Source: Aeromicrobium senzhongii
GTDB lineage: Bacteria > Actinomycetota > Actinomycetes > Propionibacteriales > Nocardioidaceae
NCBI RefSeq assembly: GCF_014334735.1
Contig: NZ_CP060587.1
Coordinates: 1,426,001 to 1,490,000, forward strand
DNA length: 64,000 bases
Direction: 5' to 3'
Below, piece after piece: positions 1,242 to 47,983 of the stretch; position 1 is the stretch's first letter, and every line of letters starts with the position of its first letter. Under the pieces are notes generated by a model, which was not told where the DNA came from, did no database searches, and saw only the letters and a program-made list of their open reading frames with translations. The translations under genes and the position numbers were made by a program.

Positions 1242-3752
1242 ATGCGTGTCCCCGTGGAGTGGCTGCGGTCACTCGTCGAGTTGCCCGATGCCGTCACGAC
1301 GGAGCAGTTGGCCGATCGCCTGACGATGTACGACCTCAAGCTCGAGGAGATCGTCGGCGGCGGCCTGTCCGGCCCGCTGACGGTCGGCCGCGTGCTGGCG
1401 ATCTCGCCCGAGGAGCAGAAGAACGGCAAGACGATCAACTGGTGCCGCGTCGACGTCGGTGCGCACAACGAGCCGTCGGTGCCCGACGCCCCCGGTGACG
1501 ACGTGCCCTCGCGCGGCATCATCTGCGGCGCGCACAACTTCGGTGTCGGCGACCTCGTCGTCGTGTCGCTGCCGGGCACGTACCTGCCCGCGCTCGGCTT
1601 CGAGATCGGCTCGCGCAAGACCTACGGCCACGTGTCCGACGGCATGATCTGCTCGACCACCGAACTCGGTTTGGCCGAGGACGAGTCGACCGCCCACGGC
1701 ATCGTCGTGCTCGAGCCCGGCTCCGCGGAGCCCGGCGACGACGCGATCGCGCTGCTGGGCCTGGCCGACCAGACCCTCGACCTCGAGGTGAACCCCGACC
1801 GTGCCTACGCGCTGAGCCTGCGTGGCGTCGCCCGCGACGCCGCCCTGGCGTTCGACGTGCCGTTCACCGACCCCGCCGACCGTCCCGTGCCGTCCACCGA
1901 TGCCGCGGCCTACCCGGTCCGCGTCGAGGACCCGATCGGCTGCCCCGTCTTCACGACGCTCGTCGTCGAGGGCATCGACCCGTCCGCGAAGACTCCGGCG
2001 TGGCTGGCCAAGCGGATCACCGACGCGGGCATGCGTCCCATCTCGTTGACCGTCGACGTCAGCAACTACGTCATGCTCGAGCTCGGTCAGCCGAACCACT
2101 GCTACGACCGCGCCAAGCTGAGCGGCGACATCGTCGTCCGCCGCGCGCACGAGGGCGAGACCCTGCGCACGCTCGACGACGTCGACCGCAAGCTGAGCAC
2201 CGACGACCTCCTCATCACCGACTCCGCGGGCCCCATCGGCCTGGCCGGCGTCATGGGCGGCGACCGCGTCGAGATCGACGCCACCAGCACCGACGTCGTC
2301 ATCGAGGCCGCGCACTTCGACCCCGTCACGATCTTCCGCACCCAGAAGCGCCACAAGCTGCCCACCGAGGCCGCCAAGCGGTTCGAGCGTGGCGTCGACC
2401 CCGAGCTGCCGCTGCGCGCCGCCACCCGGGTCGCCGAGCTGCTGGTCGAGTTGGCCGGCGGCACCCTGGTCCCCGGCGCCACCGTCGTCGGCACCGCTCC
2501 GGAGCGGAAGCCGGTCACGTTCTCGACCGAACTGCCCGCCCGGATCAGCGGCCTTCCGATCACCGCCGAGCAGGCGCGTGACACGTACGAGCGCAACGGC
2601 TGCCTCGTCGAGGTGGCCGGTGACCGGTTCACCGTCACGCCGCCGTCGTGGCGCTTCGACCTGAACGACCCCTACGACTTCGTCGAGGAGGCGCTGCGCA
2701 CCGCTGGGTACGAGAACGTCCCCTCCGTGCTGCCCACGCCGACCGGCGGTCGCGGACTCACCCGCTCGCAGGAACTGCGGCGCCGAGTCGGCCACGTGCT
2801 GGCCGGTGCCGGCCTCGTCGAGGTCACGACGCTGCCGTTCGTCGGCGACGCCGACCTCGACCGGCTCGCGCTGCCGCAGGGCGACCCGCGACGCGACCTC
2901 GTCCGCCTGGCGAACCCCCTGTCGGCCGAGGAGCCGGGCCTGACCCCGACGCTGCTGATCGGCCTGCTGCGCGCGGCCTCGCTCAACATCGGTCGCGGTC
3001 ACGACTCCGTGCAGATCAGCGAGATCGGCCGTGTGTTCCACCCGCGTTCCGGCGATGCCGTCGCGCCCATCTACGGCGTCGACCGTCGTCCGACGGCCGA
3101 GGAGCTGGCTGCCCTCGACGCCGCCCTGCCCGAGCAGCCGCGCCACGTCGGCTTCGTCCTGGTGGGCGAGCGCGAGCGCTCCGGCTGGTCCGGCCCCGGC
3201 CGACCCGTCGCCTGGACCGATGCTCTGGAGATCGCCCGGCTCCTGGCCCAGAACCTGCACGTCGAGCTGACGGTCGAGGCGGCGCAGTTGGCGCCGTTCC
3301 ACCCCGGCCGCTGCGCGCAGCTGAGCGTGGGGGAGCAGGTCGTCGGTCACGTCGGCGAGCTGCACCCCAAGGTCGCCGAGGCGTACGGCCTCCCGGGCCG
3401 GGTCGCCGTCGGCGAGCTCGACCTCGATGCGCTGATCGACGCGGCGCCGCTGGTCGGCCCCAAGCCCGACTTCTCGGCCTTCCCGGTCGCGAAGGAGGAC
3501 TTCGCGTTCATCGTCGACGAGGCGCTGCCCGCGGGTGAGCTGGAGTCGGTCATCGCCGGTGCCAGCGACCTCTTGGAGTCGGTGCGACTGTTCGACGTCT
3601 ACACGGGCGACCAGGTGGGCGAGGGCAGCAAGTCCCTGGCCTTCAAGGTGCGCCTGCGTGCGGATGACCGGACGCTCACCGAGGCTGACATCAAGGCTGC
3701 GCGCGACCAGATCGTGGCGGCTGCCGCGACACTCGGAGCGCAGCTGCGCTGA
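1242..3752 (+). CDS. pheT: Phenylalanine--tRNA ligase beta subunit
   Basis: Beta subunit of PheRS; it carries the editing site that hydrolyses Tyr-tRNA-Phe and the tRNA-binding domains. The ATG at 1242 directly after the pheS stop gives 836 residues, a normal length. In order one sees the OB-fold tRNA-binding domain (about 40-160), the B3/B4 editing module (about 210-400, with VNPDRAYALSLRGVARD before it), the B5 domain (about 410-480), the inactive synthetase-like core, and a C-terminal ferredoxin-fold anticodon-binding domain ending RDQIVAAAATLGAQLR. The frame is open further upstream into pheS, but homology and operon spacing favour 1242. Confidence 0.97.
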   Translation: MRVPVEWLRSLVELPDAVTTEQLADRLTMYDLKLEEIVGGGLSGPLTVGRVLAISPEEQKNGKTINWCRVDVGAHNEPSVPDAPGDDVPSRGIICGAHNFGVGDLVVVSLPGTYLPALGFEIGSRKTYGHVSDGMICSTTELGLAEDESTAHGIVVLEPGSAEPGDDAIALLGLADQTLDLEVNPDRAYALSLRGVARDAALAFDVPFTDPADRPVPSTDAAAYPVRVEDPIGCPVFTTLVVEGIDPSAKTPAWLAKRITDAGMRPISLTVDVSNYVMLELGQPNHCYDRAKLSGDIVVRRAHEGETLRTLDDVDRKLSTDDLLITDSAGPIGLAGVMGGDRVEIDATSTDVVIEAAHFDPVTIFRTQKRHKLPTEAAKRFERGVDPELPLRAATRVAELLVELAGGTLVPGATVVGTAPERKPVTFSTELPARISGLPITAEQARDTYERNGCLVEVAGDRFTVTPPSWRFDLNDPYDFVEEALRTAGYENVPSVLPTPTGGRGLTRSQELRRRVGHVLAGAGLVEVTTLPFVGDADLDRLALPQGDPRRDLVRLANPLSAEEPGLTPTLLIGLLRAASLNIGRGHDSVQISEIGRVFHPRSGDAVAPIYGVDRRPTAEELAALDAALPEQPRHVGFVLVGERERSGWSGPGRPVAWTDALEIARLLAQNLHVELTVEAAQLAPFHPGRCAQLSVGEQVVGHVGELHPKVAEAYGLPGRVAVGELDLDALIDAAPLVGPKPDFSAFPVAKEDFAFIVDEALPAGELESVIAGASDLLESVRLFDVYTGDQVGEGSKSLAFKVRLRADDRTLTEADIKAARDQIVAAAATLGAQLR

Positions 3753-3788
3753 CCGGCACCCGGGTGGTCGGTCTGGTTACATGGCACC

Positions 3789-5222
3789 ATGACCGACCAC
3801 GAGCGCGTTCGGACCGAGCATGACCTGCTGGGGGAGCGCGAGGTACCGGCGGACGTCTACTGGGGAGTGCACACCCTGCGCGCCCTGGAGAACTTCCCGA
3901 TCACCGGTGTGCCCATCGCCATCAGCCCGTACCTCCCGCAAGCCCTCGCGGCGGTGAAGGAGGCGGCGGCCGAGGCGAACCACGACCTCGGCCTGCTGGA
4001 CGACGAACGCCATGCGGCGATCGTGCAGGCCTGCCGCGAGATCCGGGCCGGCGAGCTGCACGACCAGTTCGTCGTCGACGTCATCCAGGGTGGCGCCGGC
4101 ACGTCGACGAACATGAACGCCAACGAGGTCATCGCCAACCGGGCGCTGGAGATCCTCGGGCACCGCTTCGGCGACTACGACCGCCTGCACCCGAACGAGC
4201 AGGTGAACCTGAGCCAGTCGACGAACGACGTCTACCCGACGGCCGTCAAGATCGCGGTCATCAACGCGACGTACGACCTGATCGACTCCATGGGTCGCCT
4301 CGAGGACGCCTTCGCCGAGAAGGCGGTCGAGTTCCACGAGGTCCTCAAGATGGGCCGCACGCAGCTGCAGGACGCCGTGCCGATGACGCTCGGCCAGGAG
4401 TTCGGCACCTACGCGCTGATGATCGGCGAGGACCGCGAGCGCCTGCGCGAGGCCGTCCTGCTGCTGCACGAGATCAACCTCGGTGCCACCGCGATCGGCA
4501 CCCAGCTCAACGCCCCGCAGGGGTACGTGCCCCGCGCCCGCGAGCACCTGTCGCGCATCACCGGCCTGCCCCTGCGCACGGCCGTCGACCTGATCGAGGC
4601 GACGCAGGACTGCGGCTCCTTCGTGCAGATGTCCGGTGTGCTCAAGCGCGTCGCGGTGAAGCTCTCGAAGATCTGCAACGACCTGCGTCTGCTGTCGTCC
4701 GGCCCGCGTGCCGGCCTCGGCGAGATCAACCTGCCCGCGCGCCAGGCCGGGTCCAGCATCATGCCGGGCAAGGTCAACCCGGTCATCCCCGAGGTCGTCA
4801 ACCAGGTGGCGTTCCAGATCATCGGCCACGACGTCACGGTGTCGATGGCGGCCGAGGCCGGACAGCTGCAGCTCAACGCCTTCGAGCCGGTGATCTGCTA
4901 CTCCCTGTCGGCCGGTCTCTACCGGCTGCGGATGGCGATCGAGTCGCTGACCGAGCACTGCGTCCGAGGGATCACCGCCAACCGCGAGCACCTCGCGGCC
5001 GAGGTCGCCAACTCCGTCGGCCTCGTCACGGCCCTGAACCCGTACCTGGGCTACCAGACCGCCACCGAGCTGGCCAAGGAGGCGTTGCTCAGCGGGCGCG
5101 GCGTCGCCGAGCTCGTGCTGGAGAAGGGCCTGCTGCCCGCGGACGAGCTCGAGCGGATCCTGCGGCCCGAGACGCTGGCCCATCTGGGGCCCAAGCCGGC
5201 GGACCGCTCCGGCGGCGTCTGA
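3789..5222 (+). CDS. aspA: Aspartate ammonia-lyase
   Basis: Fumarase/aspartase superfamily enzyme that reversibly converts L-aspartate to fumarate and ammonia in the cytoplasm. The 477-residue product has the family's three signature regions: a GAGTSTNMNANEV stretch near residue 100, QSTNDVYPTAVKIA near 140, and the catalytic-loop signature GSSIMPGKVNPV near 320. The N-terminus RTEHDLLGEREVPADVYWGVHT is typical of aspartases rather than FumC, although class II fumarase is the main alternative. It lies 36 bases after pheT. TTACAT 6 bases before the ATG may be part of its own promoter, and no clear ribosome binding site is seen. Confidence 0.9.
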   Translation: MTDHERVRTEHDLLGEREVPADVYWGVHTLRALENFPITGVPIAISPYLPQALAAVKEAAAEANHDLGLLDDERHAAIVQACREIRAGELHDQFVVDVIQGGAGTSTNMNANEVIANRALEILGHRFGDYDRLHPNEQVNLSQSTNDVYPTAVKIAVINATYDLIDSMGRLEDAFAEKAVEFHEVLKMGRTQLQDAVPMTLGQEFGTYALMIGEDRERLREAVLLLHEINLGATAIGTQLNAPQGYVPRAREHLSRITGLPLRTAVDLIEATQDCGSFVQMSGVLKRVAVKLSKICNDLRLLSSGPRAGLGEINLPARQAGSSIMPGKVNPVIPEVVNQVAFQIIGHDVTVSMAAEAGQLQLNAFEPVICYSLSAGLYRLRMAIESLTEHCVRGITANREHLAAEVANSVGLVTALNPYLGYQTATELAKEALLSGRGVAELVLEKGLLPADELERILRPETLAHLGPKPADRSGGV

Positions 5223-10433: not shown

Positions 10434-12155
10434 CTACCCGTCGAGTCCGTCCGAAGCTGCAATCGATCGGTCGGGGGCCTCATCGCGAACTGCGAACTGG
10501 AGGCGCTCGGACTCGGGAAGCATCATTGACTGCGCCAATATCGCTGCGAACGCCTCGAGGTCGGGCGTTCCGATCTGAGGCGAGAAGAACCACTCGTGAT
10601 TCTTCACGCGCGTAATGAGATCGATCCTGCTTTCCTGAGACTCACCCTCACCCGCGATGGCTCGTACGTAGCGAACCTCGTCGAGCCTGGTGTCGTCTTG
10701 GAAGACAGCTTCCTTGAAAAACTCGGTCGTGCCACCAGTCAGGATTCGACGGTCGGTGACGGCGACCATGACCCGGTTCGGGTCCTTGTCGAGAGTCGAG
10801 CCGATCTTCTCCTTCGCCGCGCTCACGACAGCACCAACCCTGCCATGGGCAGGGTTCTCAGCAGCCAAACCGATGGCGCGTAGTTGTTCGTCGGGTTCCA
10901 GCAACCAGCGCAAGAGCTCCCAGTACGGTTCAAGGACCACGTCCGGTGGAGCACACACCACTTCAGGTCTCTCGAGAGGTGCCGAAGGCGCGAGAAACGT
11001 GTCCCCCAGTGGGGCGATGGCTTCGAGGACGCTCGACGCAAGCTTTCGAGTGGTGTCGATGTCTTTTCGCTTCGAAGACAACTTGAGCGAGCTGGGTCCC
11101 GGCATCGCGACGATGATCCGTAACTCTCGCGTGAGCGAACCCAACAGGGTCGCAATGTCGTCGAGGTCGGAGGTGAGCTCGCGCTGAGTGTTCTCGACGA
11201 TGGACTCGAAGTGCTTTGCTTCGGCGGGGTCTGTTGCGCCCGCCTCTCGCGCGACGGCACCCGCGAGCGCTTGGAATCCGGTCCACGCCTTCACTGCAGC
11301 CAAGAGGGCGAAGGCGTCGAACGCGATCGTTTGCGCATTCGACTGCAGGAACTCCCGCCGCTGGCGAACGTTCAGTTCGGTGATCTTCCGAAGATGGTCC
11401 TCGATACTTGAACGGTACTTGTTGCGTTCCGTACCTATGTCAGTCTTCTTGCTCGCGATCGTGTCCCACAGTGACGCAGGCACTGAACCTGCGATCTGAG
11501 CAGCTTCGAGCGCCTGGTCGACGGACTCGATGAGACTCATCAGCCGCGCTCGTTCGTCTCGGCGGTTGCTCTCGATCACGCTTTGCGTCAGATCGATGTT
11601 CCTCCGGACTAGTGCGCTGACCTCGTTCAGTTGAGTCTGTAGCGCAACCATCGCGAGGGCGGGACCGAGCGCGACGGCCGTCTGGGCAACGCTTACACCT
11701 GCCGCGGGAGTAAATCGTGCTTGGGCGAGCGTTTTTGTCGAACCTTTCGGGAGCAGGATGGTTCCGAGGTTCTTGCCGTCCTTGACCGCGAGCCGCCCGC
11801 CTGCATTCAGCAGGGCTCGGCTCTCCTCCGAGAGTCGGTAAAGCCCCTGCATGCTTGCGGCGCCCTGAGCGAGGTTTCCACCCACCGTGGCGGCGGTACC
11901 TGCGGCCGCAACGACGCTGGCGATGTGCGTGTGATCGCGCGTTGAGAGCAGCCCCGTGTTCAGTCGTTCGAGGGAGTTTTCCAGCTCCTCGGGGAGCTCA
12001 CCGAAAACGGCAACGACGTTAGGGAGCACCTCGACGAGTTCCGGTGCCGTCTCGTTCGCCCGCGATTCGTCTTCGTTGGGAAGCCCCGGTCTACCGGGGC
12101 CGGACTCCTGGCCATCGATAGGCTCATCGGTGCCGTCCGAGACGTTCTCGGGCAT
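10434..12155 (-). CDS. Large protein with C-terminal PH-like domain, unknown function
   Basis: 573 residues from ATG 12155, chosen because AGGAG lies 6 bases upstream; the open frame extends 27 codons further without such a site. The N-terminus (about 1-45) is acidic and low-complexity. Residues about 75-185 are Ala/Gly-rich with weakly hydrophobic helices (SVVAAAGTAATVGG; SVAQTAVALGPALAMVAL), then come long charged helices (about 190-400). The last 110 residues contain RVMVAVTDRRILTGG and later NHEWFFSP, the strand pattern of bacterial PH domains that bind membranes or proteins. Codon use is visibly less GC-biased than in neighbours, which suggests transfer. Function unknown. Confidence 0.7.
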   Translation of the reverse strand: MPENVSDGTDEPIDGQESGPGRPGLPNEDESRANETAPELVEVLPNVVAVFGELPEELENSLERLNTGLLSTRDHTHIASVVAAAGTAATVGGNLAQGAASMQGLYRLSEESRALLNAGGRLAVKDGKNLGTILLPKGSTKTLAQARFTPAAGVSVAQTAVALGPALAMVALQTQLNEVSALVRRNIDLTQSVIESNRRDERARLMSLIESVDQALEAAQIAGSVPASLWDTIASKKTDIGTERNKYRSSIEDHLRKITELNVRQRREFLQSNAQTIAFDAFALLAAVKAWTGFQALAGAVAREAGATDPAEAKHFESIVENTQRELTSDLDDIATLLGSLTRELRIIVAMPGPSSLKLSSKRKDIDTTRKLASSVLEAIAPLGDTFLAPSAPLERPEVVCAPPDVVLEPYWELLRWLLEPDEQLRAIGLAAENPAHGRVGAVVSAAKEKIGSTLDKDPNRVMVAVTDRRILTGGTTEFFKEAVFQDDTRLDEVRYVRAIAGEGESQESRIDLITRVKNHEWFFSPQIGTPDLEAFAAILAQSMMLPESERLQFAVRDEAPDRSIAASDGLDG

Positions 12156-12277
12156 TTTGTCTCCTGGCGAGTCGGGTGGTGCGGCGGTGCCCGGACGGTC
12201 CGTCACCCTGCAGGGAGTGTAGATCTCCGCGGCCACCCGTTTGAGGCAAACGACGAACGACTAACGACCGCAACGTC

Positions 12278-13039
12278 TCACGGCTCGTGGTTGGCCAAGC
12301 GTTCGCTGGGCTCGCACGTGACGTGAATCCAGCCCTCCCTCCGCGCTGCAGCGGCGTCTTCGCCAGGCGGGGGGATGGTCAGGTCGAGATCGCGTGCTCG
12401 TGCGACGAGCGCACACACTACGGCGTCGCACACGTCGTCGCTCTTGAAGAACCTTGAGACCAAATCCTGGTCTGCGGTCAGGAACGGAAAGTTCGACTGC
12501 AAGGCGGGCCACGCAAGCTTCGACTTGCCGAACTCCCAAGCCGAGAGCGCTGCTGCGGGATAGGTCTCGCACACCGTTCCGTCCGACCCGGACCGATCGA
12601 CAGCGACACCGAGACGAAGCAGTTCTGCCTCAACCAGCACCCACATGGCAGCGGTCGCCCCGAGCATCTGGAACGACGCGGGGAGCGGACGAGTTCTGAT
12701 CGCAGGATGTTCCGTGAGGAACCGGTCGGTGCGTCGTTGGGCGACCTGCTTGGTGCGCCAGACGCTCCAGTCACCCGGGCGAGGCAAGTCATCATCGGGC
12801 AGAGGCTGGTCGTGCCGTTTCGCCATCAGAGCGACGAACAGATCCGGCCATCCGAATGGGACGTCGACGGCCCAGGTGCTTTCCCGGTGCTCAGCGATCA
12901 GTGGTGCGATGGCGATGGCTTCGAGTGGGTGACGCACGTCGACAACCCGAGCCTCACCTGGAACTGACCAGTCGATGGCGACGGCCGCGGTCTTCTTCTT
13001 GTTGGTCGAGACGTCGAGGCCCCAGGTCACGTGGTTCAC
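12278..13039 (-). CDS. DUF429 family protein (RNase H-like fold)
   Basis: 253 residues from GTG 13039, which has GAGGA 7 bases upstream; the frame extends further but without a good site. TWGLDVSTNKKKTAAVAIDW opens the protein like the first strand of an RNase H/actin-like fold with a conserved Asp, and STWAVDVPFGWP provides the second acidic strand, as in DUF429 proteins. A basic middle part (WRTKQVAQRRTDRFL) and DDVCDAVVCALVARARD follow; the D-A-x-x-x-A helix is characteristic. Biochemical role of the family is unknown. It is the upstream neighbour of the PH-like gene on the same strand, 122 bases away, and shares its lower codon bias. Confidence 0.78.
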   Translation of the reverse strand: MNHVTWGLDVSTNKKKTAAVAIDWSVPGEARVVDVRHPLEAIAIAPLIAEHRESTWAVDVPFGWPDLFVALMAKRHDQPLPDDDLPRPGDWSVWRTKQVAQRRTDRFLTEHPAIRTRPLPASFQMLGATAAMWVLVEAELLRLGVAVDRSGSDGTVCETYPAAALSAWEFGKSKLAWPALQSNFPFLTADQDLVSRFFKSDDVCDAVVCALVARARDLDLTIPPPGEDAAAARREGWIHVTCEPSERLANHEP

Positions 13040-13270
13040 CGGGACATCCTCGCGTGGATCTCGGTCCGAGAGCCGTGGTTCGGACGAATGAGTTCGTCTG
13101 GGTTGCGTCCTTGCAGAGGACCAGAGCATGGAAACCTGAGCGGTGCGTCGCGTGTCGTGGCAGACCGTGTCAAGCATGGGAGGCGTGGGGTCCGGAGGGA
13201 CGTGACGATGATGTCGTTCACCCCTTCGCCCTCACATGCCGAGGGCGAGAAGTCCACGGTGGTCGACTGG

Positions 13271-38021: not shown

Positions 38022-38188
38022 AGATCGAATCTCGGCATGAGCGGATGTGCACCTGGCGTGCGTGCCCATAAGCGGTGTTATGACGCGAGGCCTTCGGCGA
38101 GCGTCCCGTCGCGCAATGATCACGCGGGCGGGAGTGTGGACGGCCTCGTCCGGAACACATTCGACGGACATCGGGCGGCACACGAACC

Positions 38189-38194
38189 TAAGGT
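38189..38194 (+). promoter_or_regulatory. -10 box of the orphan membrane protein gene
   Basis: TAAGGT is followed by GGCCGT and GTG (38201); leaderless spacing, though AAGGTGG could act as a ribosome binding site. Confidence 0.4.
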
Positions 38195-38200
38195 GGCCGT

Positions 38201-39049
38201 GTGACGACCGCCCGTGTCCTGACTGGTCTGAGCCGCACGGTCCCTCCGGGCGTGGGCCTGGGTGTGTGCGTGGCGCTCAACTACGTGGTCGCGTACGCGA
38301 TCCTCGAGTCGCGCTACGGGTCGGTGTTCTTCATGTCGGACGACACCCGCAGCAGCGTCGTGTGGGTCCCGCTCCTGGTGGGCGTGGTGGTGGGCTGCGC
38401 CCAGTCGTTGTCGTTCGGCTTCCGTGTCGCGGCGGGTGCTTCGGTTCTCACCGTTGTTCTCAGCTATGCGTTCCTCTTCACACGCCTGGGTCTGCTTTCG
38501 GGGACGCTGATCCTGTGTGCCATGGGTACTGCCGCGGGATGGGCAGTGGCATGGGCTCTTGCCCGGTTGACCTCGAGGCTCGTGCCGGCGTCGCGCCTTC
38601 TCCTGGCGGCCGTCGTGGTGGCCTCGCCGGTCAGCGTCGTCGTTTCCAAGGCGACTGCCGCTGGTGATGAGGACTTCGCTCGCGTCCACACGTCGTCAGA
38701 TGGGCCGGCCGTGCTGATCCGGGTAGGGGGCGACGCCCATCAGCACGCCGTCACCGGACGACTGGCCGACGTCGACGGCTGCCTGGGGATCGTCGACGCG
38801 GCTCCCGTGCCCGTCCGTGGCCGCGATCCCCGATCCCTGATCGAGGCAGCCGAGTCAGGCAGGGCCGTGGTGATCTGGCCGTCGGGGACGACTGTCGGGT
38901 CCGATCCGTACACCGTGTCCAGCGAGGGACGCACCTATCAACTTGGCGACCACGTGACCGTCGGTGGGTGGTGGGTCCGACTTGACGAGGACGACCCGTT
39001 CTACAGCCAGACACCCGAGGCCTGTCTCGCGAACCCCTTCATTTCCTAG
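38201..39049 (+). CDS. Membrane protein with extracellular domain, unknown function
   Basis: 282 residues: hydrophobic segments at about 17-35, 53-70, 76-94, 98-120 and 128-147, then a soluble C-terminal domain (about 150-282), presumably outside the cell, rich in beta-forming residues (GPAVLIRVGGDAHQHAVTGR; LGDHVTVGGWWVRLDEDD). A Cys at 195 and another at 276 might form a disulfide. The family is not recognised. It starts 180 bases after the DUF1579-like gene, with no partner visible. Confidence 0.65.
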   Translation: MTTARVLTGLSRTVPPGVGLGVCVALNYVVAYAILESRYGSVFFMSDDTRSSVVWVPLLVGVVVGCAQSLSFGFRVAAGASVLTVVLSYAFLFTRLGLLSGTLILCAMGTAAGWAVAWALARLTSRLVPASRLLLAAVVVASPVSVVVSKATAAGDEDFARVHTSSDGPAVLIRVGGDAHQHAVTGRLADVDGCLGIVDAAPVPVRGRDPRSLIEAAESGRAVVIWPSGTTVGSDPYTVSSEGRTYQLGDHVTVGGWWVRLDEDDPFYSQTPEACLANPFIS

Positions 39050-39611
39050 CTCGGCGCCGTCTTGTCTCGGGTCCTCCTGCGTATGCGCACGCTCGGCGAA
39101 GCGACGCGCTTTTGAGGTGCGGCGCGTCAGAGGCAGATGGGTGCGGTTCCATCTCTGAGGCAGCGGCTCGTGGACGATGATGTTCCAGTGATCGATGGAG
39201 ACTTGACTGGCTGGTTACCCGCCTAACGGTCCCTGCCCATTCGCCGACTGACATGACAACGGCTCCGAGAACGATGCTCACGATCAGCGACTGCCTCATG
39301 AGGACTCGTCCACGGCCCGAGTTTTGGGATTGGCACGCGAACGTCGATGAGACCACCCTCGCCCGATTGGAGCTTGCACCCGAGGCGAACGTCACCCCAG
39401 TCGCGCTTCGTACCGCTGATGCGAACTCACTAGTGCTCGCGATGGGTGAGGTCTACCAAAGTATCGGCCGTCCCTTGTCGCGGCTTTCCAGTGGCGGGTT
39501 ACACCTGGTTAGCAGGGCGGGCACAGCGCGAGTCTCCTGCGGCAAGGAGCTGCGACGTACTAAGGTCGCCGCAAACACCTGCCGCGAGGCCGTACCTCAA
39601 GAAAGTGACCG
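39050..39611. other. 562-base stretch before the ABC three-component cassette
   Basis: No convincing gene. The base composition drops here and stays lower through the cassette, as at the edge of acquired DNA. An open frame at 39253-39663 (136 residues) runs into the cassette's first gene in another frame and lacks a ribosome binding site or a recognisable fold. The cassette's promoter must lie here, but no strong -35/-10 pair stands out. Confidence 0.5.
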
Positions 39612-40673
39612 ATGGACTACGTGGATCTGCCAGTGCCGCCTGATGGCGCTGAAGGACCAGTAGTTCCCCGTCTTTCTCCTCGCCAACTCGTCGCTGTCTA
39701 CGAGCCAGGAGACTGGGAGTCGTTTGTCCACGAGTGGCTCCAAACGCGAGATGGCTACGCGCGGCTCGTACGCCCTTCCGGGCCAGGCGACGAAGGGATC
39801 GACGTCGCCGGGCTGGCCGACGCGGATGGGTTAGAAGGAGTCTGGGACAACTACCAGTGCAAGCACTATCAGGCTTCCCTTACGCCAAGTGACGTCTACC
39901 CCGAGGTTTACAAGGTGCTCAGAGGGGTTATCAAAGGGGCCTACGTGATGCCGCGAAAGTACTACTTCGTGGCACCAAAGGGATGCGGCACCAAGCTTGG
40001 GAAGTTGCTCAGCAGTCCAACAAAGTTTCGAGAATCATTCCTCAAGCTGCTTGAAGATGACCCGCCGGCTTGGTTATCAACGAAGCCCGAAGAGGAGCGG
40101 AATGAAGTCGCCGAACTCGCGGCGACGACGAACTTCCAGCTCTTCAACGAGATTCCGGTCGCAGACGTCGTCAAGGAACACTCGAGCCATCCCAACCACG
40201 CCGCGCGATTCCAAGTCGCCCTCTCGCGCCGTGGTCCGGCCGAACGGCCGCCCGCGGAACCGGCAGCGCTGGAAAGTCGATACGTCGAACAACTCGTCGA
40301 CGTCTACTGCGAACGCTTCGGCTTGCCGGCCCCGGGCACGCTTGAGGATGTAGTGGGCCATGACCAAGCGCGGGAGCACCTCCAGTGGCAAAGGGTTGCC
40401 TTCTACAGCGCCGAGGCGCTCAAGCGGTTCGCCCGCGATGAGGTTCCGGACGGAACGTTCGAGGCTCTTGCCGATCAGTTGCATGCAGGCGTCGTAAATG
40501 TGCATGACGATGACTACTCCTCGGGGTACGCCCGTCTCTTGGCTGTGCTCAACACGGCTGGAAACCTTGCGCTAGGTGCCAACGCGCTGCTTCCCCGTGT
40601 CGAGATTCAAGATCGCCACGGCATTTGCCACCAACTCGCCAACGTCGACCGTCTGGTGTGGGTGCGGCCATGA
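39612..40673 (+). CDS. Mrr-like nuclease effector of an ABC three-component system
   Basis: 353 residues. The N-terminal half has a PD-(D/E)xK nuclease of the Mrr/restriction-endonuclease type: WESFVHEWL (helix with Glu36/Glu41), RPSGPGDEGIDVAG (Asp64 in the G-D-x-G-I-D motif) and YQCKHY (Gln82, Lys84, the Q-x-K form). The C-terminal half (about 215-353; LESRYVEQLVDVYCERFGLP, then VVNVHDDDYSSGYARLLAVL) looks like the C-terminal docking domain of ABC-3C effectors. It likely cuts DNA when licensed by the ATPase. ATG 39612 has only a weak AAAGTGA upstream. Its stop overlaps the next start by 4 bases. Confidence 0.8.
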   Translation: MDYVDLPVPPDGAEGPVVPRLSPRQLVAVYEPGDWESFVHEWLQTRDGYARLVRPSGPGDEGIDVAGLADADGLEGVWDNYQCKHYQASLTPSDVYPEVYKVLRGVIKGAYVMPRKYYFVAPKGCGTKLGKLLSSPTKFRESFLKLLEDDPPAWLSTKPEEERNEVAELAATTNFQLFNEIPVADVVKEHSSHPNHAARFQVALSRRGPAERPPAEPAALESRYVEQLVDVYCERFGLPAPGTLEDVVGHDQAREHLQWQRVAFYSAEALKRFARDEVPDGTFEALADQLHAGVVNVHDDDYSSGYARLLAVLNTAGNLALGANALLPRVEIQDRHGICHQLANVDRLVWVRP

Positions 40674-41152
40674 TCCAGGTACTCAACGGCCCGATCGAGA
40701 TGGCACTTCGTGTCATCGCTCTGCTGGACGCCTACGAGGATGTTCCGCTTAGTCGGGAACAGCTGATCCTTCTGGACCACGCATTGATTCACAGTGCCGA
40801 CTACGACGGTCCTCCCAGTCTGCACCCACCCTTGCCGGCGCGCGAAAGTGAACTCTCGGTGAAGCGCAGCCAGGTCAACGCTGCCCTGCAACTGCTCGTA
40901 CGAGCCGGCCTGGCCGATATTCAGAGCCGGGGACCGGAAGTTGGCGTCCGGGCGGCCGACGGCGCGCGGCCCTTCCTGCAGCTCCTCGAGACTCCCTACG
41001 CACGTCGCTGCGGCGAGCTCGCCCGCTGGACCCGAGAGGTGTTCGGCGAAGCAAGTGTCATAGACCTGGATCGCCGGATCGGGCTGCTCGCGGCCAGAAG
41101 CGTCCCGAACCGCCGCGATGCCGAAAATCGCGACTCAACTACGGAGGATTGA
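40670..41152 (+). CDS. Middle component of an ABC three-component system
   Basis: 160 residues. It is helical, with a winged-helix-like part: LSVKRSQVNAALQLLVRAGL, then ADIQSRGPEVGVRAADGARP. MIQVLNGPIEMALRVIALLD at the N-terminus and the hydrophilic C-terminus fit the small middle-component proteins found between effector and ATPase in ABC-3C cassettes. It probably bridges the two partners or senses the invader. ATG 40670 shares an ATGA overlap with the nuclease gene, and its TGA overlaps the first base of the ATPase ATG. Confidence 0.75.
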   Translation: MIQVLNGPIEMALRVIALLDAYEDVPLSREQLILLDHALIHSADYDGPPSLHPPLPARESELSVKRSQVNAALQLLVRAGLADIQSRGPEVGVRAADGARPFLQLLETPYARRCGELARWTREVFGEASVIDLDRRIGLLAARSVPNRRDAENRDSTTED

Positions 41153-42975
41153 TGACCAGCATCACGCTACGGTCGCTCGCTGTGGTCGGGAGCGGAGTCC
41201 CTCCGGCGGTCGTCGAGTTCGGTGACGACCTCACTGTCGTCCACGGTGCGAGCGACACAGGAAAGTCATTCGTGTTTAACGCCATCGACTACATGCTCGG
41301 CGGGAAGTCGATTAGGCACGTAAGGGAACTCGACGCCTACGACACCGCACTCCTCGCTCTAACCCTTGCGGATGGCACCGAGTGGACGCTGTCCCGGGGG
41401 CTGAATGGCGGAGCATTCCAGCTTTACAACGGCCTTCACTTGGTCGAGCCCACAGCCGGGGGTGAGAAGTTGGCGGCAAAACATCATTCGGAGAACGATG
41501 AGAACGTCTCGGCTTGGCTCTTGGCCAAGAGCGGCATCGGTCGCCGACGAATCCGCAAGAACGCGAGCAACGCGACAGTCGGTTTGAGTTTCAGGGACGT
41601 GGTTCGCTTATGCATGGTGGACGAGGTTGAAGCAATCTCCACGCACTCGCCTGTAGAGACTGGTCAGTTCACCAGCCGCACGAAAGAGCGGTCAGCATTT
41701 CGAGTGATTCTTGAGGACTCCGACGACGCTTCCCTTGTCGACATTTCCTCGGCCAGCGACAGGACCAAAAGCACGAAGTCGCAGCAAGATGCACTCGGGC
41801 GCCTGCTTGGTCGCCTGCAGGAAGAGACCGGCTCAAGCCTCGAGAGACCTCAGGTTGAGGAACAGCTTGAGCGGCTCGACCTAAGCCTCACAGACGCGAT
41901 CGGGAATCTGACAAGCGCGGCAACGGAAGCAGAGCGGATACAAACCGCGCAGGCCCAATTGTCCAGGACTCTGCGCGAAGTCGGCGACTCCATCTCGGAC
42001 CGACAGACCCTCATCGCGCGCTTTTCTCTGCTGGGTGAGGCGTACCAGTCCGACCTGGAGCGGTTGGACGCGGTGGAAGAACTTGGCTCGCTACTCGGCT
42101 TCTTCGGTGAAGACACCTGTCCGTTCTGTGGCGCGCCCTCAACCGCCTGGGAGCACGCTGAAGTCGAGGGAGATGTACTTCGCGGCTTGGTTGAGTCCGA
42201 GAGGGACAAGATCCGTCTCCTCGGATCGCAGTTACAGGACACGCTCCGTGCCATGCAGGTCGACCTGGCCGCCGATGAGGAGAACCTCGCCAACCTGCGA
42301 GCGTCGCACGACGCGCTGGTCGCGGAACTGGCGGAGTTGAACGGACGAGTGTCGCCGATCAGCGTAGAGATGCGCGAAGTGATGGACTTGCAGAACCAAC
42401 TCCGCGAGCGCGTCGCGCGGTGGGACCAGATAGCCGAGATCGAAGAGTTTCGTGACACTCTGGGCGAGACGGAGTCCCCTGAAGCTGAGCCGAGCTCGTC
42501 GCCGTTGGGTTCGCTTTCAGAGTTCGAGCGGCAGATGGAGTTGGTCCTTCGGGCCTGGGAAGTACCTGGCGTGGACTCGGTGGCCTTTGACCAGACGAAC
42601 TGGGACTTGGTCGTTGGCGGCCGTCCGCGTGCAGAACGCGGGGCTGGCATGCGAGCTCTGCTGCACGCTGCGTTTACGGTCTCGTTCGCTGAGTTCTGCA
42701 TAGACAACGAGCGTCCGCATCCAGGATTTGTCGTGCTTGATTCGCCATTGGTCACCTACCGGGATCCCGAGGACGAAACAAGCGTCGACTTCGTTGGTGG
42801 ACAGGTCGCCGATGCGTTCTATAGCTACCTTGGCAATCAGTTCTCGGGACAGGCGATCGTTTTCGAGAACACGCAGCCACCGGGCGCTGGCCTCGGAAGT
42901 GCGTTGCTGCACACCTTCACTCGTTCAAAGAAGAAGGGGCGGTACGGCTTCTTCCCGTTGTCTGCGGAGGACTGA
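41152..42975 (+). CDS. SMC-like ABC ATPase of an ABC three-component system
   Basis: 607 residues. Walker A is GASDTGKS (32-39) in an N-terminal ABC half beginning ITLRSLAVVG. Two long coiled coils (about 195-310 and 345-450) flank a zinc-hook-like CPFCGAP (Cys323, Cys326), as in Rad50/SMC-like proteins. The C-terminal half has ERGAGMRALLHAAFTVSFAE for the signature region and GFVVLDSPLV (Asp530) for Walker B; the D-S-P-L ending is typical of DUF3732/ABC-3C ATPases. GGAGG lies 4 bases before the ATG. It should sense or clamp invading DNA and activate the nuclease. Confidence 0.85.
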   Translation: MTSITLRSLAVVGSGVPPAVVEFGDDLTVVHGASDTGKSFVFNAIDYMLGGKSIRHVRELDAYDTALLALTLADGTEWTLSRGLNGGAFQLYNGLHLVEPTAGGEKLAAKHHSENDENVSAWLLAKSGIGRRRIRKNASNATVGLSFRDVVRLCMVDEVEAISTHSPVETGQFTSRTKERSAFRVILEDSDDASLVDISSASDRTKSTKSQQDALGRLLGRLQEETGSSLERPQVEEQLERLDLSLTDAIGNLTSAATEAERIQTAQAQLSRTLREVGDSISDRQTLIARFSLLGEAYQSDLERLDAVEELGSLLGFFGEDTCPFCGAPSTAWEHAEVEGDVLRGLVESERDKIRLLGSQLQDTLRAMQVDLAADEENLANLRASHDALVAELAELNGRVSPISVEMREVMDLQNQLRERVARWDQIAEIEEFRDTLGETESPEAEPSSSPLGSLSEFERQMELVLRAWEVPGVDSVAFDQTNWDLVVGGRPRAERGAGMRALLHAAFTVSFAEFCIDNERPHPGFVVLDSPLVTYRDPEDETSVDFVGGQVADAFYSYLGNQFSGQAIVFENTQPPGAGLGSALLHTFTRSKKKGRYGFFPLSAED

Positions 42976-43057: not shown

Positions 43058-43166
43058 ATGGCGAACCGCATCGCCTCACCGATCTGGGCCCGGCCCTTGC
43101 GCGACGACTGGCCGGTCGTCCACGCGCTGCATGCATGGAGGACCGACCACTCAGCCGCATCCACCG

Positions 43167-43889
43167 TCAGTCGGCGGTGGCTTTGGCGGCCTCGTCGATG
43201 ACCAGCGCGACGGTCTCGGGTCGTGAGACCGTGACGGCGTGCGAGGCGTCGACCTCGACGTTCTTCGAGCCGGCGCGGTCGCCCATGAACCGCTGCGACT
43301 CGGCCGGGACGGCGAGGTCCTGGAGCGTGACGATGTTCCATGTCGGGACGTTCCTCCAGCCCGCCTTCGTGGCCTTCTCCTCGAGGGCGTCGCCGATGAT
43401 CGGCCGCTGGGTGACGGCCATCAGCGCCGCGTCCTCCTCGGGGACGTCGGCGGCGAAGACTGCATGGAACTTCTCCTGTTCGATGTAGAGGTCGACGGCC
43501 TCCGCGTTGTCCGGCGTCGCCACCGGCACGGGGTGCAGCGCCGACCCCAGCTCTGCGCCGGGGAACTTGGCCGAGAACTCTCCGGTGCTCTCACCCTCCT
43601 CGAGGATGAAGCTGGCCACGTAGACCAGCGCCTTCACGCCGGGGTGACCGTCGATCGCCTGGCTCATCACGCTGCCGCCGTAGGAGTGGCCGGCGATGAC
43701 GATCGGGCCCTCGATGCTGTCGAGGACGGTGCGCAGGTACTCGGCGTCGCCGTGCAGGGTCCGCAGCGGGTTCGCCGCCGCGATCACGGGGTAGCCGTCG
43801 CCCCGCAGGGTCGCGATCACCTCGTTCCAGCTGGAGGAGTCGGCGAAGGCGCCGTGGACCAGGACGATGGTGGGTTGGGTGGTGGCCAT
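43167..43889 (-). CDS. Alpha/beta hydrolase
   Basis: 240 residues. VLVHGAFADSSSWNEVIATL is the oxyanion-hole region, GHSYGG (Ser69) is the nucleophile elbow, and EVDASHAV near the C-terminus carries the catalytic His. The group is the EstC/haloalkane- or salicylate-esterase-like set of small hydrolases, often annotated as 'alpha/beta hydrolase' beside stress regulators. Substrate unknown. AAAGGA lies just upstream of ATG 43889. It starts 20 bases after the stop of the next hydrolase gene, so the two are one operon. Confidence 0.9.
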   Translation of the reverse strand: MATTQPTIVLVHGAFADSSSWNEVIATLRGDGYPVIAAANPLRTLHGDAEYLRTVLDSIEGPIVIAGHSYGGSVMSQAIDGHPGVKALVYVASFILEEGESTGEFSAKFPGAELGSALHPVPVATPDNAEAVDLYIEQEKFHAVFAADVPEEDAALMAVTQRPIIGDALEEKATKAGWRNVPTWNIVTLQDLAVPAESQRFMGDRAGSKNVEVDASHAVTVSRPETVALVIDEAAKATAD

Positions 43890-43909
43890 GATGGGTTCCT
43901 TTCGGTGGG

Positions 43910-44734
43910 TCAGCTCTGGGTGAAGGCGAGGAGGTCGGCGTTGATGACGTCGGCGTTGACGGTCGCCATGCCGTGGGGGAAGCCGGGGTAGACCGTGAGC
44001 GTCCCGTTCGGCAGCAGCTTGATCGCGACCTCCGCCGAGGCGCCGATCGGCACGACCTGGTCGTCGTCGCCGTGCATGAGCAGTGTCGGCACGTCGATGG
44101 CACGCAGGTCCTCGGTGAAGTCGGTCTCGGAGAAGGCCTTCACACCGTCGTAGTGCGCCTTCGCGCCGCCGGCCATGCCCTGTCGCCACCAGTTCCAGAC
44201 GATCCCCTCCGAGGCGTTCGCGCCCGGCCGGTTGAACCCGTAGAAGGGACCTGAGGCGACGTCGAGATAGAACTGCGACCGGTTGGTCGCGACGCCCTCG
44301 CGGAAGCCGTCGAAGACCTCGATCGGCAGGCCGCCCGGGTTCGCCTCGGTCTGCAGCATCAGCGGAGGAACGGCGCCGATCAGCACGGCCTTCGCCACGC
44401 GGCCGTCACCGTGTCGAGCGACGTAGCGCGCGACCTCGCCGCCGCCCGTGGAGTGCCCCACGTGCACGACGTCGTGCAGGTCGAGGTGCCGGACCACGTC
44501 GGCGGCGTCGGCCGCGTAGTGGTCCATGTCGTGCCCTTCGGCGACCTGGCTGGACCGGCCGTGGCCGCGCCGGTCGTGCGCGATGACGCGGTAGCCGTGC
44601 TGGACGAAGAACAACAACTGGGCGTCCCAGTCGTCCGAGCTCAGCGGCCAGCCGTGGTGGAACATGATCGGCTGCCCCGATCCCCAGTCCTTGTAGAAGA
44701 TCTCGGTGCCGTCGTCGGTGGTGATGGTCGCCAT
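43910..44734 (-). CDS. Alpha/beta hydrolase, cofactor-free chloroperoxidase type
   Basis: 274 residues. [20 protein letters not shown] and [11 protein letters not shown] are the landmarks of the non-heme chloroperoxidase/arylesterase group (CpoF-like). The triad is visible: Ser95 in GHSTGGGE, Asp225 in [10 protein letters not shown] and His254 in GFPHG. Such enzymes hydrolyse esters and can perhydrolyse with hydrogen peroxide; the natural substrate is rarely known. It is the first gene after the MalT-like regulator on the same strand, 118 bases away, with direct repeats in the gap, so regulation by that protein is likely. Confidence 0.92.
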
Positions 44735-44816
44735 GGCGGACTCCTCGCAGGTGGCGACCGGCGATCTGCCGGTGTCCCACCACGGTGGTCCGGTGCGAGG
44801 CTGACAGCGTCAGTCA

Positions 44817-44848
44817 GATGACTGCACGTCCACTCGGCGATGACTGCA
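44817..44848. promoter_or_regulatory. Direct repeats upstream of the hydrolase operon
   Basis: GATGACTGCA occurs at 44817-44826 and again at 44839-44848, exactly 22 bases apart (two helical turns). The second copy overlaps the palindrome GACTGCAGTC (44842-44851). They lie 83-114 bases upstream of the hydrolase start: candidate binding sites for the neighbouring LuxR-type regulator. Confidence 0.5.
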
Positions 44849-44852
44849 GTCG

Positions 44853-47606
44853 TCAGTGACGGGCTGCGTCGCCGAGGGCGTCGCGCAGTGCCGCCCGGCT
44901 GGTGATCCCGAGCTTGGGGAAGATCCGATAGAGATGCGCCGACACGGTACGCGGGGAGACGTAGAGCCGGGCCGCGATCTCGCGGTTGGTCAGGCCGCTC
45001 GCCGCCAGCTCGGCGACCTCGAGCTCCTGCGGCGTCAACGAGTCCGCACCGGTCACCGTGGCGGTGCCCCGGCTGACGCCGGTCGCGCGCAGCTCGGTCG
45101 CCGCTCGGTGCGCCCACGGTACGGCGCCCAACCGCTCGAACCCGGCGCGGGCGGCGTCGAGCTGCACGCGCGCGTCACGCGTACGGCGCAGCCGACGCAG
45201 GCGCTCACCGAGGGCCAGGCGCACCCTGGCCAGCTCGAACGGCCACGACTCGACAGCCGGGAGGGCCACCGCCCGTTCGAACAGCCCGGGCGCCTCAGCG
45301 TCGGGGGCCACCATCGCCGCCGCCGCGGCCGTGGTGAACGCGAACCGCGGGGTGATCCGGCCGAGATCGGCCTGCTGCAGGACGGCCGCGTGATGGCGTG
45401 CCTGAGCCGTGCGGCCCGTGTGGTGCGCTGCCTCCACCAGGTCGAGTCCGGTCCAGACCGCCTCTGGGTTGTGGGTGCCGAGGCTGCCCGGCTCCGTGAT
45501 GCTCACGGCGTGGGCGTAAGCGGTCTCGAAATCACCGTGTGCGAGGGCGGCTTCGGTCAGCGCGTGCCGGGCCCAGTTGGCCACCCATCCGAACTGGCGC
45601 GGCTCGGCCCAGTCGAGCATCGCCCGGCACTGGGCGATGCACGCGTCCCGGTCGCCCCGATTGGCCGCGACGAGAGCCAGGCCGTACAGCGGGCCCCAGG
45701 TGTAGAGCCGGTACCCGAGGTCGGCGCACAGGTCCTTGGTCTCGTGAGCCGCCCGAGCAGCTGCGTCCCACCGTCCCGACCGGTAGTCATCGAACGCCAC
45801 CATGGTCAGGGCCAGGACCGCCGAGCCGGCGGCACCGCCCTCCCGCCCGTCGTGGACGACGCGGTCCAGCGCACCTCGGCAGCCGGCCAGACGGTCCACG
45901 TTGAAGGCGGCGATCACGGTACGGACGATGTGCGCGACGTCCATCGAGTCATCGAGCCCCGTGATGGCCCGATCGAGCTTCTCCAGCGTGGCGGGGGGTA
46001 CCACCAGCGGGTCACCCTGCGCCGCGGCGATCACGACCGCGTCGGTGATCGCGGAAGGGGGGAGGCGCGCGACGATCTCGCGCAGGCTCTCCCAGTAGTC
46101 CGCGCGTCCGGCGAACTGGCACACGGAGGACAAGGTGTAGACGGCCTGGGTGAGGTCGTCCCCGCATGCTTCCGGCCGATCCAGCGCGGAGCGGATCGCA
46201 TCGGTCAGCAGTTGGTGGGCCGTCGTGACGTCGGCCTCGCTCGTGAGCAGCAGGTAGCTGGCCGTGACCGCCGCCTGCAGCGTCTCGGCCGCCGTCGGGT
46301 CGCCGCGCGTCACGTCGCGCAACAGCCGGGACGCGTCCTCGAGCCGGCCCGTGGAGAACGCCCCGATGAACGCGGCGTCCGCCAGCCGACGGTTGCGCTG
46401 GGTGCGGTCCGGGCTCAGGTCGGCGGCCCGCATCAGTCGGGTGACGGCTCCGACGACGTCACCGCGCTGGAGCGTGCTGCGAGCGCCGGCCTCCACGGCC
46501 GCCGCCGTGTCCTCGTCCGGGCAGAGCGCGGCCTCGGCCAGGTGGTGTCCGCGTCGCTCGGGGTCGGTGAAGACCTCGGCGAGTGCCAGGTGCACGCCGC
46601 GGCGTTCCTCGAACGTGGAGCGGTCGACCATGACGCTCTTGATCAGGGGATGGCGGAAGGTCATGTGGCCCGCCGCGTCATCCACGAGGACGAGATGGTC
46701 GAGCTCTGCCGGAGCGAGGTCGTCGAGGGTGCCGGTCAGGCTGGCTGCGGCGATGACCGCCAGGTCACCGGACCCCTCGAGCGCGGCGAGCAGCATTAGC
46801 GAGCGCGTCGCGCTGGGCAGCACGGCGATCCGGGCGTTGTACAGCGCCTTCACCTCGCGCACCGTCCCGTCGACCTGGCCGCCGGTCCCGGTGGGTCCTC
46901 GTCCCGCCGAGGCGAACTCCAACAGGGCCAGCGGGTTCCCTTGGGTCTCGTGGGCGATCTCGCGGTGCACCCTGATCGGGAGGTGCGCGAACTGGTGCGC
47001 CAGCAACTCCAACGACTCCGCGTCCGCCAGCGGCGGGACGACGACGTCGCGCCAGCCGGTGCGGTCGAAGAACCCGCCGGCACCGGGACGCGCCGCCGCG
47101 AGCAAACCGAGCCGGGAGTCGTCCAGGCGCCGTCCGACGAAGCCGATGACCGACGCGCTGGCTCGGTCCACCCAGTGCATGTCGTCGATCACCACCAGCA
47201 GAGGCAGCTCGGCGGCGGCCAGGCGGAAGAGAGTCAGGGCGGCGTCGAACACGGCCAATCGGTCGGGGATCGGCGCGGACCCGATGCCCAATGTCGTCTC
47301 GAGGGTCGCGCGGGTCGCGTCCGGCAGCCGGGGCAACCAGGCGGCGAGCGGGACGACCAGCTGGTGCAGGGCGGAGAAGCTGACATCGGACTCGTACTCG
47401 ACACCGGCGCCGCGGACCACCCGCATCTGCTCGGCGTCGGCGACATCACAGGCAGCGTGCAGGAGGGCTGACTTCCCGACGCCCGGTTCGCCCGTCAGCA
47501 GCAGGGCACCGCCGTCGACCGCGGCCTTGCGCACGAAATCGGTGAGGGCGGCTACCTCGCGCGCGCGTCCTACGAGGCGGGGCGTCGGCGGATGCGCGTT
47601 GGCCAT
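44853..47606 (-). CDS. Large MalT/LAL-type LuxR transcription regulator
   Basis: 917 residues. An N-terminal STAND/AAA_16 ATPase has Walker A GEPGVGKS (39-46) and Walker B LLVVIDDMHWVDRAS. A long helical TPR-like middle follows (about 330-830). The C-terminal LuxR helix-turn-helix holds LTPQELEVAELAASGLTNRE, then IAARLYVSPRTVSAHLYRIF. Such LAL regulators use ATP binding and an inducer to switch on metabolic operons. Two alpha/beta hydrolase genes lie directly downstream and are the probable targets. ATG 47606; no strong ribosome binding site. Length is normal for the class. Confidence 0.93.
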   Translation of the reverse strand: MANAHPPTPRLVGRAREVAALTDFVRKAAVDGGALLLTGEPGVGKSALLHAACDVADAEQMRVVRGAGVEYESDVSFSALHQLVVPLAAWLPRLPDATRATLETTLGIGSAPIPDRLAVFDAALTLFRLAAAELPLLVVIDDMHWVDRASASVIGFVGRRLDDSRLGLLAAARPGAGGFFDRTGWRDVVVPPLADAESLELLAHQFAHLPIRVHREIAHETQGNPLALLEFASAGRGPTGTGGQVDGTVREVKALYNARIAVLPSATRSLMLLAALEGSGDLAVIAAASLTGTLDDLAPAELDHLVLVDDAAGHMTFRHPLIKSVMVDRSTFEERRGVHLALAEVFTDPERRGHHLAEAALCPDEDTAAAVEAGARSTLQRGDVVGAVTRLMRAADLSPDRTQRNRRLADAAFIGAFSTGRLEDASRLLRDVTRGDPTAAETLQAAVTASYLLLTSEADVTTAHQLLTDAIRSALDRPEACGDDLTQAVYTLSSVCQFAGRADYWESLREIVARLPPSAITDAVVIAAAQGDPLVVPPATLEKLDRAITGLDDSMDVAHIVRTVIAAFNVDRLAGCRGALDRVVHDGREGGAAGSAVLALTMVAFDDYRSGRWDAAARAAHETKDLCADLGYRLYTWGPLYGLALVAANRGDRDACIAQCRAMLDWAEPRQFGWVANWARHALTEAALAHGDFETAYAHAVSITEPGSLGTHNPEAVWTGLDLVEAAHHTGRTAQARHHAAVLQQADLGRITPRFAFTTAAAAAMVAPDAEAPGLFERAVALPAVESWPFELARVRLALGERLRRLRRTRDARVQLDAARAGFERLGAVPWAHRAATELRATGVSRGTATVTGADSLTPQELEVAELAASGLTNREIAARLYVSPRTVSAHLYRIFPKLGITSRAALRDALGDAARH

Positions 47607-47983
47607 GATGCTCCAGGAGCCCGCGAGTCGCGGGACGGCGTTGGATGCTGCTGGTCAGTGAGCTCAAGGCTAGAGGCTCGACGCTTCGGAGCGCACCCCA
47701 TTTCTCGCTCTCTGGCCAGAGCGGGGAGGTGGGCCGGCAGGGGGTGACCCTTGGCGGTGTTTGCATGATGAACTCTGGTGCGGTGATCGCCATGGTGTCG
47801 CCGCGAGCGGGACTCCACAGGGGCAGACCATCGAGAACTCGAGCACCGGACCTCATTGCTACGCCTGAGGCCCACGACCCCAGATGTCCGTTCTTGCTGG
47901 CGGGGCTTGATGCGTCACGGGGCATGAGAGGTTTCGAATCCCGCTCGATTCTCTCTTTGCGGGACTAGCATCCAGACACCGGC
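47607..47983. other. 377-base stretch without a supported gene
   Basis: It separates the divergent MalT-like regulator and DUF6011 genes, so it should contain both promoters. An open frame at 47645-47968 has no ribosome binding site and no recognisable fold. A segment at 47931-47946 (GTTTCGAATCCC) looks like a tRNA T-loop, but the flanks do not pair as a T-arm. Confidence 0.45.

Follow-up and report, generated by a model that had tools for sequence, protein, structure and literature searches.

The three coupled genes at positions 39612-42975 of the window, the 64,000-nucleotide stretch of the Aeromicrobium senzhongii chromosome that was analysed, had been read as an ABC three-component (ABC-3C) defence cassette and as a strong candidate for a poorly described system. 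We therefore asked to which family the genes belong and whether they represent a new kind of system. The features concerned are as follows.

39612..40673, + strand: lmuA, effector with an N-terminal Mrr/Cap4-type PD-(D/E)xK nuclease and a C-terminal ABC-3C CTD6 (residues 221-350); 353 aa
40670..41152, + strand: lmuC, middle component MC2, helical with a central winged-helix-like element; 160 aa
41149..42975 (TTG start) or 41152..42975 (ATG start), + strand: lmuB, Rad50/SMC-like ATPase; 608 or 607 aa
39096..43100, strand not given: strain-specific segment carrying the operon, from blastn against the closest genome (G005)

The three open reading frames were found, co-directional and coupled, where the preliminary description had placed them. 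lmuA and lmuC overlapped by 4 bases (ATGA at 40670-40673), and lmuC and lmuB by 1 base when lmuB was started at ATG 41152 or by 4 bases when it was started at TTG 41149. The ATG start is more likely, and the 4-base and 1-base overlaps described earlier were borne out, the latter value holding for this start. The lower GC content of the stretch was also reproduced (61.2% for the cassette vs 68.9% for the window), and the GC3 values of the cassette genes were 0.68-0.72, compared with about 0.9 in most genes of the window. These values, being below those of the neighbours, suggest acquisition from elsewhere.

The first protein matched the PADLOC LmuA profile (PDLC03852) over nearly its whole length with an E-value of 9.5e-102, and a Pfam scan assigned its residues 221-350 to CTD6 of the ABC-three-component systems (4.6e-36). 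The nuclease residues Asp64 and Gln82-x-Lys84, which had been picked out from the single sequence, were invariant in an alignment of 46 LmuA relatives together with Glu36 and Asp60; these five positions correspond to the residue set expected of a predicted PD-(D/E)xK nuclease. An AlphaFold model of LmuA (mean pLDDT 93.8) was compared with the PDB, in which the solved LmuA structures ranked first, followed by Cap4 and other Lamassu chains, and an LmuA tetramer on DNA (9hr5) was among the best matches. These PDB matches and the CTD6 match indicate that the C-terminus shares a fold with ABC-3C effectors. The global TM-scores of the model to the solved LmuA structures were modest, about 0.3, which would be compatible with a differing relative placement of the domains and with low identity, and no Lamassu entry was matched in a sequence search of the PDB with LmuA.

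For the second protein, the PADLOC LmuC profile (PDLC03871) gave a match of 2.7e-34 over nearly the whole length, and residues 4-136 were assigned to the Pfam ABC-3C middle component 2 (MC2) with an E-value of 4.2e-28. The middle protein thus does not belong to an unrelated family, and its description as small and winged-helix-like agreed with the helical MC2 with its central winged-helix-like element. When its AlphaFold model (pLDDT 89.1) was compared with the PDB, the first-ranked entry was 9uxh_D, the LmuC chain in a complex of type II Lamassu LmuACB and DNA, although the E-value was weak (0.02) and the TM-score was 0.54. As with LmuA, the sequence search of the PDB matched no Lamassu entry.

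The third protein matched the PADLOC LmuB profile (PDLC03863) with an E-value of 3.7e-151, again over nearly the whole length. It matched 9hqu, a DUF3732-type Lamassu ATPase, with an E-value of 1.4e-5 as a single sequence and 6.2e-19 by profile; 9ny5, 9uxh, and 9uxl were also matched by profile. The Walker A (GASDTGKS), the CPFCG hook in a short coiled coil, and the Walker B (FVVLDSP) that had been ascribed to a Rad50-like ATPase were all present; the Walker B, however, lacks the catalytic Glu, reading LDSP instead of LDEP with Ser at that position. DUF3732, which had been named as a family to be searched, gave no family-level match to this ATPase: DUF3732 was absent from LmuB in a direct Pfam scan, and a search of its own genome, the control of which was silent throughout, likewise gave no match. 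DUF3732 belongs to a sister branch of LmuB, that of Vibrio.

Judged by the Pfam and PADLOC profile E-values, the occurrence of these three genes together is far beyond chance. In the literature, type II of Lamassu includes ABC-3C and DdmABC (PMC10586767, PMC12409362), and a single Lamassu superfamily is taken to unite these two with the Lamassu-like systems (PMC10586767). The locus has an LmuB-like ATPase, an MC-family protein between the effector and the ATPase, and an effector with an ABC-3C CTD, all encoded by three genes in one operon with the conserved A-C-B order. The ABC-3C identity was confirmed by the searches against the Pfam MC and CTD families, in which CTD6 and MC2 were matched. 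Taken together, these findings make it highly probable that the locus is a type II Lamassu (ABC-3C) operon that is complete, apparently intact, and equipped with a nuclease effector of the Mrr type. The operon is an ordinary, well-formed new copy of a known defence family and not a new kind of system; indeed, it is recognised by public profiles and automatic annotation, and plasmid relatives are already annotated as 'ABC-three component system'. The system is known and structurally characterised, with a release-and-tetramerise model. Accordingly, its identification from the sequence alone was correct, whereas the view that it is poorly described, with few members tested, is out of date; anti-phage and anti-plasmid assays have been reported and structures have been solved. 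The locus adds an intact actinobacterial chromosomal example to a known anti-phage and anti-plasmid system.

Compared with the CTD6-MC2 systems of Lamassu type II/ABC-3C, the operon has the same three genes, order, domains, motifs, and overlaps with full-length profile matches, and it differs only by ordinary sequence divergence (relatives are about 24-44% identical). The Lamassu systems of Vibrio cholerae (DdmABC/Lamassu) and Salmonella (9hqu, 9hr5, 9ny5, 9uxh, 9uxi, and 9uxl) likewise combine a nuclease carrying a CTD, a small middle protein, and a Rad50-like ATPase with a zinc hook, and the folds match. However, their effector is Cap4-type in annotation, whereas that found here is Mrr-type; their middle component is DUF6521 instead of MC2; and their LmuB has DUF3732 and a Walker B Gln, whereas the LmuB found here has no DUF3732 match and a Ser. 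Cap4 of CBASS has an effector nuclease fold related to that of LmuA, but Cap4 carries a SAVED receptor for cyclic nucleotides, whereas the operon has CTD6 as a docking domain and an ATPase as the sensor.

The Walker B residue was followed in 80 genomic LmuB relatives, none of which lacked the Walker A or the C-x-x-C-G hook. In every one of them the residue after the Walker B Asp was Ser or Thr and never Glu (LDxP with Ser in 66 and with Thr in 13, and IDSP in 1). The search that gathered these loci used the Walker A together with the C-terminal motif QVIVVEN, so that the count is not biased by a search for the Walker B; the viral set, gathered in part by the Walker B motif, was left out of it. 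A Gln in place of the Walker B Glu is given as a general, though not a defining, feature of LmuB (PMC10586767), and the Walker B of 9hqu reads LDQP. This Gln was found neither here nor in the 80 relatives; as the feature does not define Lamassu, its absence leaves the membership of the operon unaffected. The constant Ser/Thr, set against the Gln of the review and of 9hqu, argues that Ser/Thr is a trait of the CTD6-MC2 branch of LmuB. For an LmuB that lacks the catalytic Glu, one would predict ATP binding with slow hydrolysis or none, and activation may consequently be one-way. It is possible, albeit somewhat doubtful, that the CTD6-MC2 LmuB with its fixed Ser/Thr binds but does not hydrolyse ATP and so would act as a one-way, single-use switch, with kinetics unlike those of the systems in Salmonella and Vibrio. 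The absence of the catalytic Glu throughout this branch, where Ser or Thr is fixed at its position, offers a small, testable point on whether any ATP hydrolysis occurs in Lamassu sensors.

The gene order was compared among relatives. LmuB homologues were found on 143 plasmid records, 76 of them conjugative; 15 plasmid loci were read, and the effector and middle component stood in tandem in all of them, followed by the ATPase in all but one, a Burkholderia glumae plasmid (L015) in which the gene after the middle component is shortened and adjoins insertion sequences. Within the order of the host, all 7 of the other full-length MC2 matches with enough flanking sequence kept the three genes in the same order, and an eighth locus (L040), cut by a contig end, showed the end of LmuA and LmuB. 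On genomic contigs, a scan with the single sequence gave no match, whereas an alignment query retrieved 340 relatives; 80 genomic loci showed the A-C-B order with few exceptions, and the exceptions inspected were contig edges, N masks, an insertion in lmuC (L114), and an lmuA frameshift (L130). The four genomic loci without a nuclease motif upstream (L096, L099, L113, and L130) were a masked stretch, contig-edge fragments, or a frameshift. Neither L114 nor L130 was accepted as a case of separated genes, given the reverse-transcriptase gene lying inside lmuC in the former and the lmuA frameshift in the latter. No separated case was found among the 15 plasmid loci, the order-level MC2 loci, and the 80 genomic loci, and hence none of the three findings that would have spoken against the preliminary description, in the family of the middle protein, the effector C-terminus, or the linkage of the genes, was made. 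The insertion in L114, of Pseudomonas putida (2115-4501), carries the gene of a 506 aa reverse transcriptase resembling those of group II introns. Some gammaproteobacterial relatives have a fourth gene directly upstream of lmuA with a 4-base overlap, encoding a restriction-endonuclease-like protein of about 332 aa (L004 1433-2428; L008 1355-2350; L009 1355-2350; L114 11-1009). Such loci may be a four-gene form of the system that recurs and has two nucleases; the window lacks the fourth gene.

Among 49 genomes of the same genus, the full system was present only in the Aeromicrobium senzhongii genome analysed here. Another of these genomes (G012) has a distant LmuB relative of 735 aa with 24% identity, preceded by a protein of 198 aa (L002 644-3444); this two-gene locus is probably another Lamassu type. 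The flanks of the cassette (38183-39095 and 43101-47620) were 92-94% identical by blastn to G005; in that genome, unrelated genes occupy about 7.6 kb between the same flanks, which indicates a variable site with differing cargo. The G005 cargo (L049 7175-14780) encodes a 570 aa protein and several unknown ORFs. Neither an integrase nor a terminal repeat was seen at the segment boundaries, and a search for direct repeats on either side, such as a mobile element might leave, gave only matches of chance length. The sequence indicates that the operon was horizontally acquired, and it provides a clean case of such acquisition at a variable site. Gene identity, motifs, predicted folds, kept order, and a sporadic, horizontal distribution were thus all observed for this operon.

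The frequency of close relatives on plasmids, as counted above, and the elimination of plasmids by Vibrio DdmABC (PMC12409362) would fit a module that is Lamassu by descent but, kept from a plasmid, serves mainly in addiction or plasmid exclusion and not in phage defence. We consider this unlikely; the operon is chromosomal, lies at a variable site, and has no plasmid genes nearby, and since characterised members defend against phages and plasmids alike, the difference would be one of emphasis and not of system. A decayed, non-functional remnant could also lie in a low-GC, horizontally acquired segment, and no sigma-70 promoter was detected for the operon by a scan that has little power in a high-GC host. 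Nevertheless, the three frames are intact, the overlaps are preserved, and all family-invariant residues are present, which makes decay very unlikely.

A DNA repair complex like Rad50-Mre11 (SbcCD) is suggested by the ATPase head, coiled coil, and zinc hook that Rad50 and LmuB have in common and by the GO term 'double-strand break repair', which some relatives carry through automatic annotation. It was rejected, as an extremely improbable reading, on the nuclease family and the accessory distribution: the nuclease is of another superfamily, a PD-(D/E)xK enzyme with an ABC-3C CTD instead of an Mre11 phosphoesterase, an extra middle component is present, and occurrence in one of 49 genomes is unlike that of a housekeeping repair gene.

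For the operon as a type II Lamassu system, a mechanism can be proposed from reviews citing the primary structural papers and from PDB entry titles. Members of the Lamassu superfamily are presumed to work through abortive infection, LmuB being the sensor and LmuA the effector (PMC10586767). On activation, LmuA is reported to be liberated and to form a homo-tetramer, by which the nuclease is activated (2025 review, PMC12409362), and DNA hairpins and DNA ends are listed as triggers (2026 review, PMC12904381). By analogy with characterised members, two LmuB ATPases joined at the zinc hook would, together with LmuC, keep LmuA inactive. LmuB would sense DNA ends or hairpins arising in phage or plasmid replication, and its ATP-dependent engagement would free LmuA, which would then assemble as a tetramer with active PD-(D/E)xK domains and cut DNA with no sequence preference, so that the cell would be killed or crippled before the invader spreads. 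We infer the sensing, release, tetramerisation, and abortive outcome from related systems; because identity to the solved members is very low and the LmuA TM-scores are modest, the mechanism would be transferred by family. Furthermore, the best-studied effector, that of Vibrio, is Cap4-type and its LmuB has Gln and not Ser/Thr, and hence details of ATP use may differ.

Two further candidates in the surroundings of the operon were rejected. A tRNA-Glu called by ARAGORN at 43401-43500, a possible integration site, was a false positive of 100 nt, antisense inside a hydrolase gene and with no Rfam match. A wider defence island was not supported by PADLOC on ten other genes of the window, which gave generic helicase and oxidoreductase matches and one weak match 26 kb away. 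The latter concerns a DUF429 protein (12278-13177), which matches the PADLOC candidate PDC-S44 (5e-12) and lies in a stretch of low GC3 (10434-13177); its neighbour is a protein of 600 aa for which Pfam gave no match.
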